64,000 nt of DNA from Xanthomonas hyacinthi (lineage in GTDB: Bacteria > Pseudomonadota > Gammaproteobacteria > Xanthomonadales > Xanthomonadaceae): contig NZ_CP043476.1 in assembly GCF_009769165.1 (NCBI RefSeq), positions 496,001 to 560,000 of the forward strand. The letters are read 5' to 3'. Of this stretch, positions 241-32,308 are shown piece by piece. Under the pieces are notes generated by a model that saw only the letters and a program-made list of their open reading frames with translations, was not told the origin of the DNA and made no database searches. The first letter of the stretch is position 1, and every line of letters begins with the position of its first letter. The position numbers and the translations under genes are program-made.

Positions 241-2562
241 TCAGTGCGCGACAGGCGCCGATGCCGCCGCTTGCCGGTTCCAGTCCGGCGTCGGTGCCTG
301 CTGCAGCCAGCGCACGAAGAAGTCCGCCAACCGGCGCCGGCCGTAGTCGCCGCCGGCGCCATGGTCGCCGCCGGGCACCACCAGCAGATCGAAGTCCTTG
401 CCGGCCTTGATCAGCCGATCGGCGACCTGCAAGGTGCTGGCCGGATCCACGTTCCGATCCATGTCGCCGGTCACCAGCAGCAGATGCCCTTGCAGGCGCC
501 AGGCGTTGTCGACATTGGACGAAGCCGAATACCACGGCCCGACCGGCCAGCCCATCCATTGCTCGTTCCACCAGATCTTGTCCATGCGGTTGTCGTGGCA
601 GCCGGAATTGGCCACCGCGGCGACGTAGAACTCCGGATGGAACAGCAAGCCGCCGAGCGCGCTCTGGCCACCGGCGGAGCTGCCGTAGATGCCCACGCCC
701 TGCTCGATCGCGTACCACGGATACTGCGCCGCCGCCGCGCGGTGCCAGGCGATGCGATCGGGGAACCCGGCGTCCTTGAGGTTGCGCCAGGCCACGTCGT
801 GGAACGCGCGCGAACGGTTGTTGGTGCCCATGCCGTCGATCTGCGCCACGGCGAAGCCGAGCGCGGTCAGCGCCGGCACGCGCGCGCTGAAGGTCTTGGG
901 CACGAACGCGCCGTGCGGCCCGGCGTAGATGTTCTCGACCACGCGGTAGCGCTGCCCGTCGGCTTGCGCCTGCGGCCGATGGATCACGCCCCAGATCTCG
1001 GTCTTGCCGTCGCGGCCGGGCGCGTGGAACGGCAGCGGCGGCACCCAGCCGGCCGCGCGCAGCCGGCTCAGGTCGGTGCGCTCGACCTGCCGCGCCAGCG
1101 CCCCGTCGTCGCTGCGGCGCAGTTCCAGCACCGGCCCCAGGTCCACCCGCGAATACAGGTCGAGCAGCCAGCGTCCGTCGGGCGACAGCACGACTTCATG
1201 GTCGGCCTGCGCCGGGGTCAGCGCGGTCAGCTCGCTGCCGTCCAGGCCGATGCGATAGGCGTGACGGTAGTAGGGATCCTCGCCGGGCGTCATGCCCGAG
1301 GCGATGAAGTAGATCTGTTGCGCGGCCTCGTCCACGCGCTCGACCTTGCGCACCACCCACTCGCCGCGGGTGACCTGGCGCGGCGCACCGCCGCTGCGCG
1401 TGGCGTACAGGTACAGCTGCTCCCAGCCGTCGCGCTCGGAGGCCCACAGGGTGCGCGCGCCATCGGCGAAATCGTGGCGATAGCGTTTGCCACCGCCTTC
1501 GTGGGTGCCGCTGAGATTGGAATACTCGATGAAGGTCGGCGAGGTTTCCTCGATCAGGGCGCGCGCCTGCGCGCTGCGCCCATCCGCCTCGATGACGCGA
1601 TAGCGCTGGTGGCCGCGTTCGTTGTACTCGAAGGTGAAGCCGCTGCCGTCGCTGCGCCACTGCGGCCAGCTCAGCGCGAACGCATTCGGGAACAGCCCTG
1701 CCGGCACTGCCTTTGCCTGCCGCGAGGCCAGGTCGAACAGCACCGGCTGCAGCACCGGCAGCGGATCGCCGGGCTTGGCGTAGATCTGCTGGTGCAGCTT
1801 GGGCTGCAACTGGTCCGGCGGCGCCGACTCGATGTAGTGCACCGTGCGCAGCGGTGCCGGCTTGATGCGGTAGGCGACCAGCCGGGTCGAATCCGGCGAC
1901 CAGGCGAGGCTGTCCGCCGCGTAGTACTCGGCGGCGCTGCCATCGCGGCTGAGCGCGACCGGGGTGCCGCCGCCGGCCGGCGCGACCACCACGTTGCCGG
2001 CCTCGACCCAGGCCCGCCACCTGCCGTCCGGCGACGCCTGCGCATACGCCGCGCCCTGCTTCAGCGGGATGCTCATGTCGTAGGAATCGGGCGGCAACGC
2101 GCCCATCTCGGTGCGCGTGCAACGGTACTGCGGCAGGTCGCAGTGCCAGCGCACCCGATCGCTCTCGAAGGCCAGCCGGTGCGCATCCAGCTTCACCTCG
2201 GACAGCTGCAATGCCGTCGCATCGACCGGCTTGCCGCTAACCGCGGACATCGCCGCCGCCAGCCGCGCGTGATCGAAGGCGAGTTCGTTGCGACCGCCGT
2301 CCACCGCCACCCGGCGGTACTCGATCGCCGGGGCGGCACCGGCGCGCGCCAGCGAGCGCCGGTACAGGAAATGCCCGGCGTCCAGCCACAGCGGCTGCGA
2401 CGGCTGGCGATCGACCAGCGCCTCGTAGCGCTGGCTCAGCGCCTGCGCGCGCTGGTAGTCGTCCGCGCTGGGCGCGGCCAGCGCGCATGGCGCCAGCGCC
2501 ACCACTGCGAGCAGCAGCGCACCCAGCGCCGCGACGCGCCGCCCGTTTCGATCCGTCTTCAT
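241..2562 (-). CDS. S9 family (DPP4-like) prolyl peptidase, secreted
   Basis: A 773-residue serine peptidase expected to release N-terminal dipeptides, typically after proline or alanine, in the periplasm. Residues 1-29 form a signal peptide ending near ALA. An eight-bladed DPPIV-type propeller follows (about 40-510), then an alpha/beta hydrolase domain. The triad reads as Ser629 in GSSAGG, Asp702 in GDMDRN and His734 in GGDHG. The start has an AGGTGG ribosome site about 8 bases upstream. The gene begins 19 bases after the GH43 gene, so it is the last member of the TonB-receptor/glycosidase operon. A paralogue with the same triad and very similar hydrolase domain lies at 16798-19128. Family and catalytic residues are clear. 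The substrate is inferred. Confidence 0.9.
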   Translation of the reverse strand: MKTDRNGRRVAALGALLLAVVALAPCALAAPSADDYQRAQALSQRYEALVDRQPSQPLWLDAGHFLYRRSLARAGAAPAIEYRRVAVDGGRNELAFDHARLAAAMSAVSGKPVDATALQLSEVKLDAHRLAFESDRVRWHCDLPQYRCTRTEMGALPPDSYDMSIPLKQGAAYAQASPDGRWRAWVEAGNVVVAPAGGGTPVALSRDGSAAEYYAADSLAWSPDSTRLVAYRIKPAPLRTVHYIESAPPDQLQPKLHQQIYAKPGDPLPVLQPVLFDLASRQAKAVPAGLFPNAFALSWPQWRSDGSGFTFEYNERGHQRYRVIEADGRSAQARALIEETSPTFIEYSNLSGTHEGGGKRYRHDFADGARTLWASERDGWEQLYLYATRSGGAPRQVTRGEWVVRKVERVDEAAQQIYFIASGMTPGEDPYYRHAYRIGLDGSELTALTPAQADHEVVLSPDGRWLLDLYSRVDLGPVLELRRSDDGALARQVERTDLSRLRAAGWVPPLPFHAPGRDGKTEIWGVIHRPQAQADGQRYRVVENIYAGPHGAFVPKTFSARVPALTALGFAVAQIDGMGTNNRSRAFHDVAWRNLKDAGFPDRIAWHRAAAAQYPWYAIEQGVGIYGSSAGGQSALGGLLFHPEFYVAAVANSGCHDNRMDKIWWNEQWMGWPVGPWYSASSNVDNAWRLQGHLLLVTGDMDRNVDPASTLQVADRLIKAGKDFDLLVVPGGDHGAGGDYGRRRLADFFVRWLQQAPTPDWNRQAAASAPVAH

Positions 2563-2581
2563 TCGTCAACCACCTGATGCA

Positions 2582-31370: not shown

Positions 31371-32308
31371 CCGGCGCCGATGCCCCAGGCGAACGGATCC
31401 TGCGCATCGATCAGCAGCTGCGCGCGGGCGGTGATGTGCGCCTGCCCGGTGATCCGCGGCAGCACGCCGCGGCTGCCGGGCACGTAGCTGGCTTCGAACA
31501 TGCTGCCGAGGATGCCTTGCTGCCGCCACACCTGGCCGGCGGCCAGCTTGCCGTCGGCGGCCAGGCAGGCCAGCTTGGCGCTGGTGCCGGTGCCGCACGG
31601 CGAGCGGTCGTAGGCCAGGCCCGGGCACAGCACGAAGTTGCGCGCGTCGGCACCGGCGTCCGGGGCCAGGCCGTTGATCTCGATATGGTCGATCTCGCCG
31701 TCGTCGGCGCCGCGGATGCCGGCCGCCTCCAGCGCCAGCCGCAGCGCCTCGGTGTAGGCGGTCAGCGCGCGCTGGTTGCGCAGCTCCAGCGCGCACGGCG
31801 TCTGCTCGGTGATGAAGAACCAGTTGCCGCCCCAGGCCACGTCGCCGCGCACGCGGCCGTAGCCGGGCACCTGCACCTCGATGCCGGTGGCGTGGCGATA
31901 GCTTTCCACGTTGTCCACCGAGACCCGGCCGTCGGCGTGCAGTTCCACCCCGACCGTGCCCACCGGGGTCTCGATGCGGTGCGTGCCCGGCGCCAGCCGG
32001 CCCAGTTCGGCCAGCGTGCGTACCAGGCCGATGGTGCCGTGGCCGCACATGCCCAGGTAGCCGACGTTGTTGAAGAAGATCACCGCGGCGCAGGCGTCGG
32101 CCGCGATCGGCGGCAACAGCAGCGCGCCGACCATGGTGTCCGAACCGCGCGGTTCGCAGGCGATGGCGCTACGCCAGCGATCGAAGCGATCGCGGAACAG
32201 ATCGCGCCGTTGCGCCAGCGGGCCGGTGCCCAGGTCGGGGAAGCCGGCGACGACGACACGGGTCGGTTCGCCGCCGCTATGCGAGTCGATCACATCGAGT
32301 GTATGCAT
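31367..32308 (-). CDS. lhpA: 4-hydroxyproline 2-epimerase
   Basis: A 313-residue proline-racemase-superfamily enzyme that epimerises trans-4-hydroxy-L-proline to cis-4-hydroxy-D-proline. The two catalytic cysteines are visible: Cys88 in GMCGHGTIG and Cys238 in SPCGTGTSAK. The pair is diagnostic for two-base proline racemase/hydroxyproline epimerases, whereas dehydratase relatives have Thr or Ser in place of one. It is the first gene of the minus-strand operon and faces a divergent PAS-AraC gene across 176 bases. The presence of all downstream pathway genes makes hydroxyproline epimerase the best call over proline racemase. Confidence 0.95.
   Translation of the reverse strand: MHTLDVIDSHSGGEPTRVVVAGFPDLGTGPLAQRRDLFRDRFDRWRSAIACEPRGSDTMVGALLLPPIAADACAAVIFFNNVGYLGMCGHGTIGLVRTLAELGRLAPGTHRIETPVGTVGVELHADGRVSVDNVESYRHATGIEVQVPGYGRVRGDVAWGGNWFFITEQTPCALELRNQRALTAYTEALRLALEAAGIRGADDGEIDHIEINGLAPDAGADARNFVLCPGLAYDRSPCGTGTSAKLACLAADGKLAAGQVWRQQGILGSMFEASYVPGSRGVLPRITGQAHITARAQLLIDAQDPFAWGIGAG

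Follow-up and report, generated by a model that had tools for sequence, protein, structure and literature searches.

The window analysed here, a stretch of 64,000 nt of Xanthomonas hyacinthi DNA (positions 496,001-560,000 of the 4.96 Mb genome), contains part of a locus of about 44 kb that extends from hsp90 to ftsY and covers window positions 241-33192 plus some 11 kb to the left of the window. Judged from gene content, linkage and promoter motifs, this locus is very probably one co-regulated system for the use of plant hydroxyproline-rich glycoproteins (HRGPs) such as extensins, in which 4-hydroxyproline (Hyp) would be the main prize. A sequence-only reading of positions 241..32308 had proposed that the stretch may be one system that removes the glycans, digests the backbone and catabolises the Hyp. 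This proposal is supported by the co-occurrence of the glycosidase/receptor half with the Hyp half, by the presence of the set at different chromosomal sites and by a promoter motif shared between the halves. The interval it described cuts the locus, as just left of the window there are a TonB receptor, a GH127-domain enzyme, a GH27 alpha-galactosidase and another TonB receptor, followed by hsp90.

The GH43, GH121 and GH127/146 enzymes of X. euvesicatoria together strip Ara4-Hyp (PMC6085000; this source, PMC7263609, PMC10850190 and PMC5343134 are cited here for the accessible parts of their text). In those parts of PMC6085000, the purpose of the GH121/GH43 pair is left open because the species cannot use L-arabinose, and this 2018 paper asks why it has the enzymes. 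It suggests that a neighbouring prolyl oligopeptidase might degrade HRGPs and that the enzymes may now be useless; Hyp catabolism is not linked to them in the accessible text. Single and triple deletion mutants were unchanged in pathogenicity (PMC6085000). Likewise, our literature search, in which subscription journals were poorly covered, found no paper linking Hyp-arabinosidases to Hyp catabolism. The locus offers a testable answer to the published question of why Xanthomonas keeps these enzymes despite the lack of arabinose use and the unaffected infection: they would serve feeding on Hyp. It also provides a palindrome and a candidate regulator, together with an uncharacterised 786-aa protein confined to genomes with Hyp-arabinosidases (23/23 in the family sample), and it suggests that plant-associated bacteria beyond pathogens may use Hyp from plant wall proteins as a nutrient.

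Hyp-arabinosidase genes co-occur with Hyp catabolism

A lack of co-occurrence of the two halves across related genomes had been named beforehand as a result that would refute the single-system proposal; when examined, the genomes did not refute it. The sample was drawn evenly from the family and comprised 198 genomes, including that of X. hyacinthi, and the epimerase threshold was E<=1e-80. The GH127-domain enzyme left of the window, the counterpart of X. euvesicatoria XeHypBA1, is called GH127/146 here, and matches above 800 bits are called its close orthologues. GH121 was found in 19/198 genomes and the Hyp epimerase in 40/198, and all 19 GH121-positive genomes also carry the epimerase. The close GH127/146 orthologue occurs in 26/198 genomes, again all of them (26/26) epimerase-positive. 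At the genus level, 9/9 genera with the orthologue fall among the 13 epimerase genera out of 54 (p=1.3e-7, with kinship between genera uncorrected). The gene for the 786-aa protein (E<=1e-20) is present in 23/198 genomes, each of which has both the epimerase and the GH127/146 orthologue, and three orthologue genomes (G028, G029 and G162) lack it.

The genes are also physically linked. GH121 and the epimerase lie 21-37 kb apart in 16/16 genomes in which one contig holds both, three others (G030, G175 and G192) being too fragmented, and all 20 genomes of the genus group hold both genes. The orthologue and the epimerase are linked at 19-46 kb in 22/26 genomes, or 22/23 when the same three undeterminable genomes are set aside, the unlinked case being Lysobacter M2-1 (G012). 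A more distant GH127-family group (39-41% identity, E<=1e-120, delimited with no tree) was linked to the epimerase within 50 kb in 0/13 cases: five are in epimerase-less genomes, two are on the same contig at a distance of at least 139 kb, and six are on other contigs, contig ends leaving three of the latter open (G008, G012 and G043). We therefore rejected the linkage of GH127-family genes in general as a marker. Among the 21 genomes with the epimerase and no GH121, the regions of 20 (all except G190) were examined, with further stretches for eight of these, which with two exceptions continue along the cluster; in six of the 20 (G001, G028, G029, G140, G158 and G162) the Hyp genes, a permease gene and a GH127/146 gene stand in one block.

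The gene araA was absent from 20/20 genomes of the genus group and matched in 5/14 controls, the oxidative arabinose route not having been searched. The cluster of Pseudoxanthomonas helianthi (L015, 7193-11654) contains an extra aldose epimerase, a second GH127 enzyme and a sugar MFS transporter, and this species may therefore also use arabinose.

The same gene set could be read as a general device for scavenging collagen or proline peptides and free Hyp, with the glycosidases as minor accessories. Indeed, DPP4-like, DUF885 and M24 peptidases are not plant-specific, and in several genera the Hyp genes are accompanied by M24, S9 or DUF885 genes in a genome without the GH127/146 orthologue. However, GH121 and the close orthologue are found only in epimerase-positive genomes of the family sample, the motif described below precedes the 786-aa gene, the receptor genes and, in Rhodanobacteraceae, the GH127-family gene, and Hyp-arabinosides are substrates of the counterparts in X. 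euvesicatoria (PMC6085000). We therefore regard general scavenging as highly improbable.

The gene set at different chromosomal sites and in a second family

In the Xanthomonas genomes checked, the cluster is mostly found between hsp90 and ftsY-mutY. Conserved order alone was therefore rejected as evidence, and an empty site, a second family and the promoter motif were used instead. The ends of the hsp90 and ftsY matches are separated by only 564 bp in Stenotrophomonas rhizophila (G612) and by 207 bp in Pseudoxanthomonas GM95 (G613), which represents an empty site, and in both genomes the cluster, including the Hyp operon, is found on the same contig at a distance of about 0.8 Mb.

Scanning for relatives of the 786-aa protein yielded 57 named loci, of which 13 belong to Luteibacter, Dyella and Rhodanobacter, three genera of the Rhodanobacteraceae. 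In eleven of these 13, the Hyp genes are accompanied by the 786-aa gene and by genes for DUF885, an APC permease and a receptor, and the remaining two loci are contigs of only 3-5 kb. A GH127-family gene (35-40% identity; domain checked in two) is also present in 9/11 loci, and two Dyella loci (L113 and L118) have the 786-aa gene with no GH127-family match within 10 kb. The ftsY regions of the same 11 genomes (20 kb each) contain no cluster gene except one aldehyde-dehydrogenase match at 25%. A chance assembly of the gene set was dismissed, because other genera share most of it with its order conserved and another family has a large part of it.

A promoter motif shared by the two halves

The intergenic region between the epimerase gene and the divergent regulator gene was taken from 37 loci, some of them overlapping, and aligned. 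The alignment contains a conserved near-palindrome, TTRTGCnnAWTTCCGCAT, which in the window lies at 32364..32382 on the minus strand (a training site). A matrix was built on 33 aligned sites, 15 of them distinct, with omission of the G008 row because the regulator of that genome has diverged at 40% identity. For each cluster gene, 400 bp of upstream sequence and 60 bp of the gene itself were scanned with it, at a threshold of 11.8 corresponding to the 99% level of random sequence. The upstream regions counted are distinct and often closely related, and some receptor rows come from overlapping loci.

The motif precedes the 786-aa gene in 49/59 upstream regions, namely in 43/46 outside the Rhodanobacteraceae, where 43/43 sites are located at -90 to -115, and in 6/13 inside this family. 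When the same regions were scanned with 40 column-shuffled matrices, at most 2/59 were matched, and random sequence gave 3/177. In the window this site is at 14158..14176 (minus strand, score 16.3). Receptor genes are preceded by the motif in 21/34 (TBDR1), 22/32 (TBDR3) and 3/5 (TBDR2) cases, and in 9/18 cases for receptors matched below 48% identity. No motif was detected upstream of GH27 (0/3), GH43 (0/33), GH35 (0/37), M24 (0/40), hsp90 (0/12) or the S9 genes (0/61 and 0/58, cross-matches not separated), nor before any gene internal to the Hyp operon.

Although none of the Rhodanobacteraceae loci was used in training, 12/13 have sites scoring at least 14. Of the loci with a GH127-family gene, 10/10 have such a site in the interval that separates this gene from the preceding one, and several loci have sites before the epimerase gene, the 786-aa gene, the DUF885 genes or TBDR1; one site falls within the end of a 786-aa gene and another past the receptor. 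The site of the 786-aa gene scores 26.0 in Lysobacter M2-1, whose 786-aa/GH127 pair is not linked to the Hyp genes. The shared motif thus appears to connect the two halves, and its binder is most likely the divergent PAS/AraC protein encoded at 32479..33192 on the plus strand (PF12833 and PF08448), a candidate Hyp sensor. A further match (score 18.7) was seen far from the locus, near the start of a gene for an outer-membrane beta-barrel transporter (L147, 10668-10686; C1:150668-150686), which is a possible further member of the regulon.

A different type of control is known from X. euvesicatoria, where the GH121-GH43 operon is HrpX-controlled, has a PIP box and is induced in the plant (PMC6085000). 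In our loci, PIP-like boxes (relaxed pattern; one strict) precede GH121 in 13/45 cases, some from the same genome. Such control would suit a virulence device, in which deglycosylation of defence glycoproteins weakens the plant wall and Hyp use is incidental. However, the deletions in X. euvesicatoria left pathogenicity intact (PMC6085000), the window's lineage has no PIP box, and in Luteibacter, Dyella and Rhodanobacter, too, the gene set is accompanied by the Hyp-linked motif, so that we consider a virulence device highly improbable. Since the PIP-like boxes are limited to 13/45 loci, none of them in the window's lineage, HrpX control of GH121-GH43 in some Xanthomonas looks like a later addition. 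The PIP box was also considered as a local regulator and rejected: one-mismatch matches in the window are no more frequent than in shuffled sequence, and none precedes GH121.

One system or two modules

Several observations weigh against a single co-regulated system. As to the motif, matches are few before the GH127-family gene (8/39), GH121 (2/33), the permease gene (3/45) and the DUF885 genes (4/59 and 4/62), and they occur before mutY (1/29) and ftsY (5/25) as well; four of the five ftsY matches (L007, L010, L019, L027 and L038) carry the related palindrome TGCCGAATKCGGCAT. In the X. hyacinthi genome itself, the sites of TBDR3 and GH127 have low scores (10.0 and 11.8) and a match of 11.1 falls inside GH43, and 800 kb of background contain five matches of at least 15 at four places. 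The absence of a PIP box upstream of GH121 in the window and in its lineage is to be counted here too. As to co-occurrence, 14/40 epimerase-positive genomes have no GH127/146 orthologue, and Hyp catabolism is therefore not tied to this arabinofuranosidase. In Lysobacter M2-1 (G012), the 786-aa/GH127 pair and the Hyp genes are on different contigs, with the motif present. A search of 398 genomes of the phylum for the combined system in other orders found that, outside the family, four genomes have GH127/146 relatives at 46-51% identity and five have more distant ones; none of these nine has an epimerase at E<=1e-60, in a search with no positive control of its own, the same query having matched in the family searches. 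Eight named Xanthomonas loci have kept the GH127/146 gene without GH121 and GH43, and GH121 is in pieces in G208 and matched as three pieces in X. phaseoli (L080). In the Rhodanobacteraceae, the permease match is at 72-78% identity in five of the 11 loci and at only 25-26% in the other six, which count against the system. Finally, the accessible text of PMC7263609 suggests that import of beta-Ara2 is common to bifidobacteria and Xanthomonas.

A small gene between the halves belongs to the same list. The 102-aa gene (14760..15068, minus strand), with a weak flagellar-rod match (PF06429, below cut-off), has a homologue (45%) at the empty site between ftsY and hsp90 of S. rhizophila (L141), and no second copy was found in the stretches of that genome examined, which are not the whole genome. 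This gene probably belongs to the hsp90-ftsY site itself and not to the system. The halves may therefore have arrived on its two sides separately, in two steps.

Some of these points lend themselves to a reading as two separate modules that are neighbours by inherited order, a glycosidase/receptor block for plant arabinosides, perhaps with import of beta-Ara2, and a general block for Hyp and proline peptides. The flanking hsp90 and ftsY, the resident gene between the halves, the epimerase-positive genomes without orthologue, the unlinked pair of Lysobacter M2-1 and the nearly constant GH121-epimerase spacing within the window's genus group speak for it. On the other hand, S. rhizophila and Pseudoxanthomonas GM95 carry the set in one cluster at other sites, a version of it exists in the Rhodanobacteraceae, the motif is common to both halves even in Lysobacter M2-1, and the more distant GH127 group is unlinked. 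Two modules are thus unlikely, and a single co-regulated system remains the reading that we prefer.

Genes of the locus

Genes were called with Pfam and NCBIfam scans together with codon-position composition, which gave better frames at several places where longest-open-reading-frame models were wrong. The gene list of the sequence-only reading (a receptor, GH43, GH35, two S9 and two DUF885 peptidases, a permease, an M24 peptidase and the Hyp pathway) was confirmed in this way. All listed genes from 241 to 32308 are on the minus strand, and only the divergent regulator gene is on the plus strand. Of the two (alpha/alpha)6 glycosidases seen by that reading, one stands as the GH121 homologue; for the other, the 786-aa protein, no enzyme family was found in Pfam or NCBIfam and no sequence match in PDB. 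Its comparison with HypBA2/HypAA-type enzymes proved nearly literal, as the window holds counterparts of the GH121/GH43 pair of X. euvesicatoria.

The GH121 beta-L-arabinobiosidase homologue (4171..8505) matches the HypBA2 model NF041578 with 1144 bits over residues 42-1407, the equivalog cut-off of 3200 not being reached, and the solved GH121 enzyme 6M5A (chain 6m5a_A) with E=6.7e-222 over query residues 46-864, the catalytic domain. By these matches it is of the same family as HypBA2, and we do not call it the same equivalog. The essential acids E383, D515 and E713 (PMC7263609) are conserved as E371, D489 and E700 (one constant offset). The start of GH43 (2582..4174; PF04616), the counterpart of the alpha-1,3-arabinofuranosidase HypAA, overlaps the GH121 stop; an S9 gene is next and the GH127/146 gene is further on, a gene order as in PMC6085000. 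The GH127/146 enzyme corresponds to the one that releases Hyp from the final arabinose; XeHypBA1 is a GH146 enzyme acting mainly on Araf-beta-Hyp (PMC10850190). GH121 and GH43 look like accessories of the locus. GH121, GH35 or a DUF885 gene were matched only piecewise in G208 (L032 and L033), G186 (L036) and X. phaseoli (L080), which may reflect decay of parts of the system; the Hyp operon was matched whole in G208 and G186 and is not in the X. phaseoli stretch.

Next to GH121 are the gene for the TonB-dependent receptor TBDR3 (8587..11544; PF00593 and PF07715), with its motif site at 11661..11679 (minus strand), which has orthologous sites elsewhere, and the 786-aa gene (11719..14079). The 786-aa protein has a Tat-like N-terminus (PF10518, 16.1 bits, below cut-off), and profile comparison found no relation to GH121 or to the GH127/146 enzyme. 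One guess is that it acts as a glycosidase on outer arabinoses or on other glycans of HRGPs. The beta-galactosidase-like GH35 protein (15140..16654; PF01301 and the DUF5597 domain PF18120) matches NF051902 with 465 bits, missing the cut-off of 500. Extensin serines carry alpha-galactose, which GH27 could remove; GH27, GH35 and the 786-aa protein probably act on such other decorations.

Both S9 (DPP4-like) peptidases, at 241..2562 (GSSAGG motif) and 16798..19128 (GASAGG motif), contain PF00930 and PF00326 and have N-termini that look signal-like by eye. An amino-acid permease of the APC superfamily (19242..20813; PF13520) is encoded between the second of them and two DUF885 putative metallopeptidases (PF05960), both with HExxPGH: the protein at 21266..23092 has HESSPGH and an N-terminus that is signal-like by eye, and that at 23089..24918 has HEGVPGH and an N-terminus that is lipoprotein-like, also by eye. 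A literature search on DUF885 and proline found nothing useful. For the M24 Xaa-Pro-type peptidase (24983..26191; PF00557 and PF01321), no signal was seen by eye.

The genes of the Hyp operon stand side by side in order, and the substrates of its products are assigned by family and pathway position. These products are the putative aldehyde dehydrogenase for the alpha-ketoglutarate semialdehyde step (26188..27780; PF00171), the DHDPS-family pyrroline-4-hydroxy-2-carboxylate deaminase (27782..28687; PF00701), the three predicted subunits of a D-Hyp dehydrogenase, i.e., the FAD/NAD(P) oxidoreductase subunit (28692..30032; PF07992), the 2Fe-2S small subunit (30025..30261, start at the first ATG; PF13510) and the DAO-family FAD subunit (30270..31370; PF01266), and the 4-hydroxyproline 2-epimerase (31367..32308). 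The epimerase passes the curated cut-off of 442 of NF010577 with 454.6 bits. Its closest solved chain is 4juu_A, an X. campestris protein (PMC4113996), and Cys88 and Cys238 are inside stretches identical to this chain.

Elsewhere in the window, outside the locus, a protein with a formylglycine-generating-enzyme (FGE-sulfatase) domain is encoded at 38608-40491. Pfam scans of 43674-63968 identified only common types of gene, namely those for a chemotaxis receptor, an EAL protein, pnp, truB, infB, nusA and complex I-type subunits, and two tRNAs are at 42657 and 58512.

Proposed mechanism

By analogy with the activities of the X. euvesicatoria counterparts (PMC6085000), GH43, GH121 and GH127/146 would strip Hyp-linked arabino-oligosaccharides down to bare Hyp, and GH27, GH35 and the 786-aa protein would probably remove other decorations. 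The three TonB receptors would import glycopeptides or peptides, whose Pro/Hyp-rich backbone would be cut by the exported S9 and DUF885 peptidases, the M24 peptidase finishing the digestion. The permease would carry Hyp or small peptides to the cytoplasm, where, following the chemistry of the known pathway, the products of the epimerase, D-Hyp dehydrogenase, deaminase and aldehyde dehydrogenase genes would convert Hyp to alpha-ketoglutarate. A regulator, most likely the PAS/AraC protein, would act on the palindrome of about 16-19 bp before the Hyp and the glycosidase/receptor operons, and Hyp would induce the whole set. As for the substrate, extensins and arabinogalactan proteins had both been named; the evidence favours Hyp-arabinosides of the extensin and lectin type, and arabinogalactan proteins are less indicated.

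A bolder version of this scheme, to which we give an even chance, would make it a glycoprotein utilisation locus, where sugar is only the packaging and the food is the amino acid, with a Hyp-sensing regulator governing sugar removal, proteolysis, uptake and Hyp breakdown as a single regulon in two families and the 786-aa protein founding a new family of Hyp-glycan glycosidases.

Comparison with known systems

The closest parallel is the XeHypBA1/XeHypBA2/XeHypAA set (XCV2724, XCV2729 and XCV2728; PMC6085000), which has the same overlap of GH121 and GH43, an adjacent S9 gene (prolyl oligopeptidase-type) and the third enzyme a few genes further on. It differs in having a PIP box and a frameshifted peptidase gene, whereas the window has no PIP box and its peptidase gene is open. 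Bifidobacterium longum uses the same families, GH121 and GH43, on Hyp-arabinosides (HypBA1, HypBA2 and HypAA). There, however, the sugar is imported by an ABC transporter (PMC7263609), whereas the window locus ends in Hyp catabolism and its genus group has no araA.

The Hyp half resembles bacterial trans-4-hydroxy-L-proline (lhp/hyp) clusters, with their epimerase, FAD/2Fe-2S dehydrogenase, deaminase, semialdehyde dehydrogenase and dedicated regulator. Known HypR regulons are of the GntR type, and in Alteromonadales a TonB receptor belongs to some of them (PMC5343134). In contrast, the window regulator is a divergent PAS/AraC protein, and the motif is shared by glycosidase, receptor and some peptidase promoters. 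The locus combines known parts in a way that we did not find described in the literature searched. Xanthomonas carbohydrate utilisation (CUT) loci with TonB receptors and Bacteroidota SusCD loci likewise bring together a receptor, secreted hydrolases, a transporter and a regulator. The present locus differs from them in that Pfam scans found no SusD domain among its scanned genes, peptidases are included, and the proposed end product is an imino acid and not a sugar.

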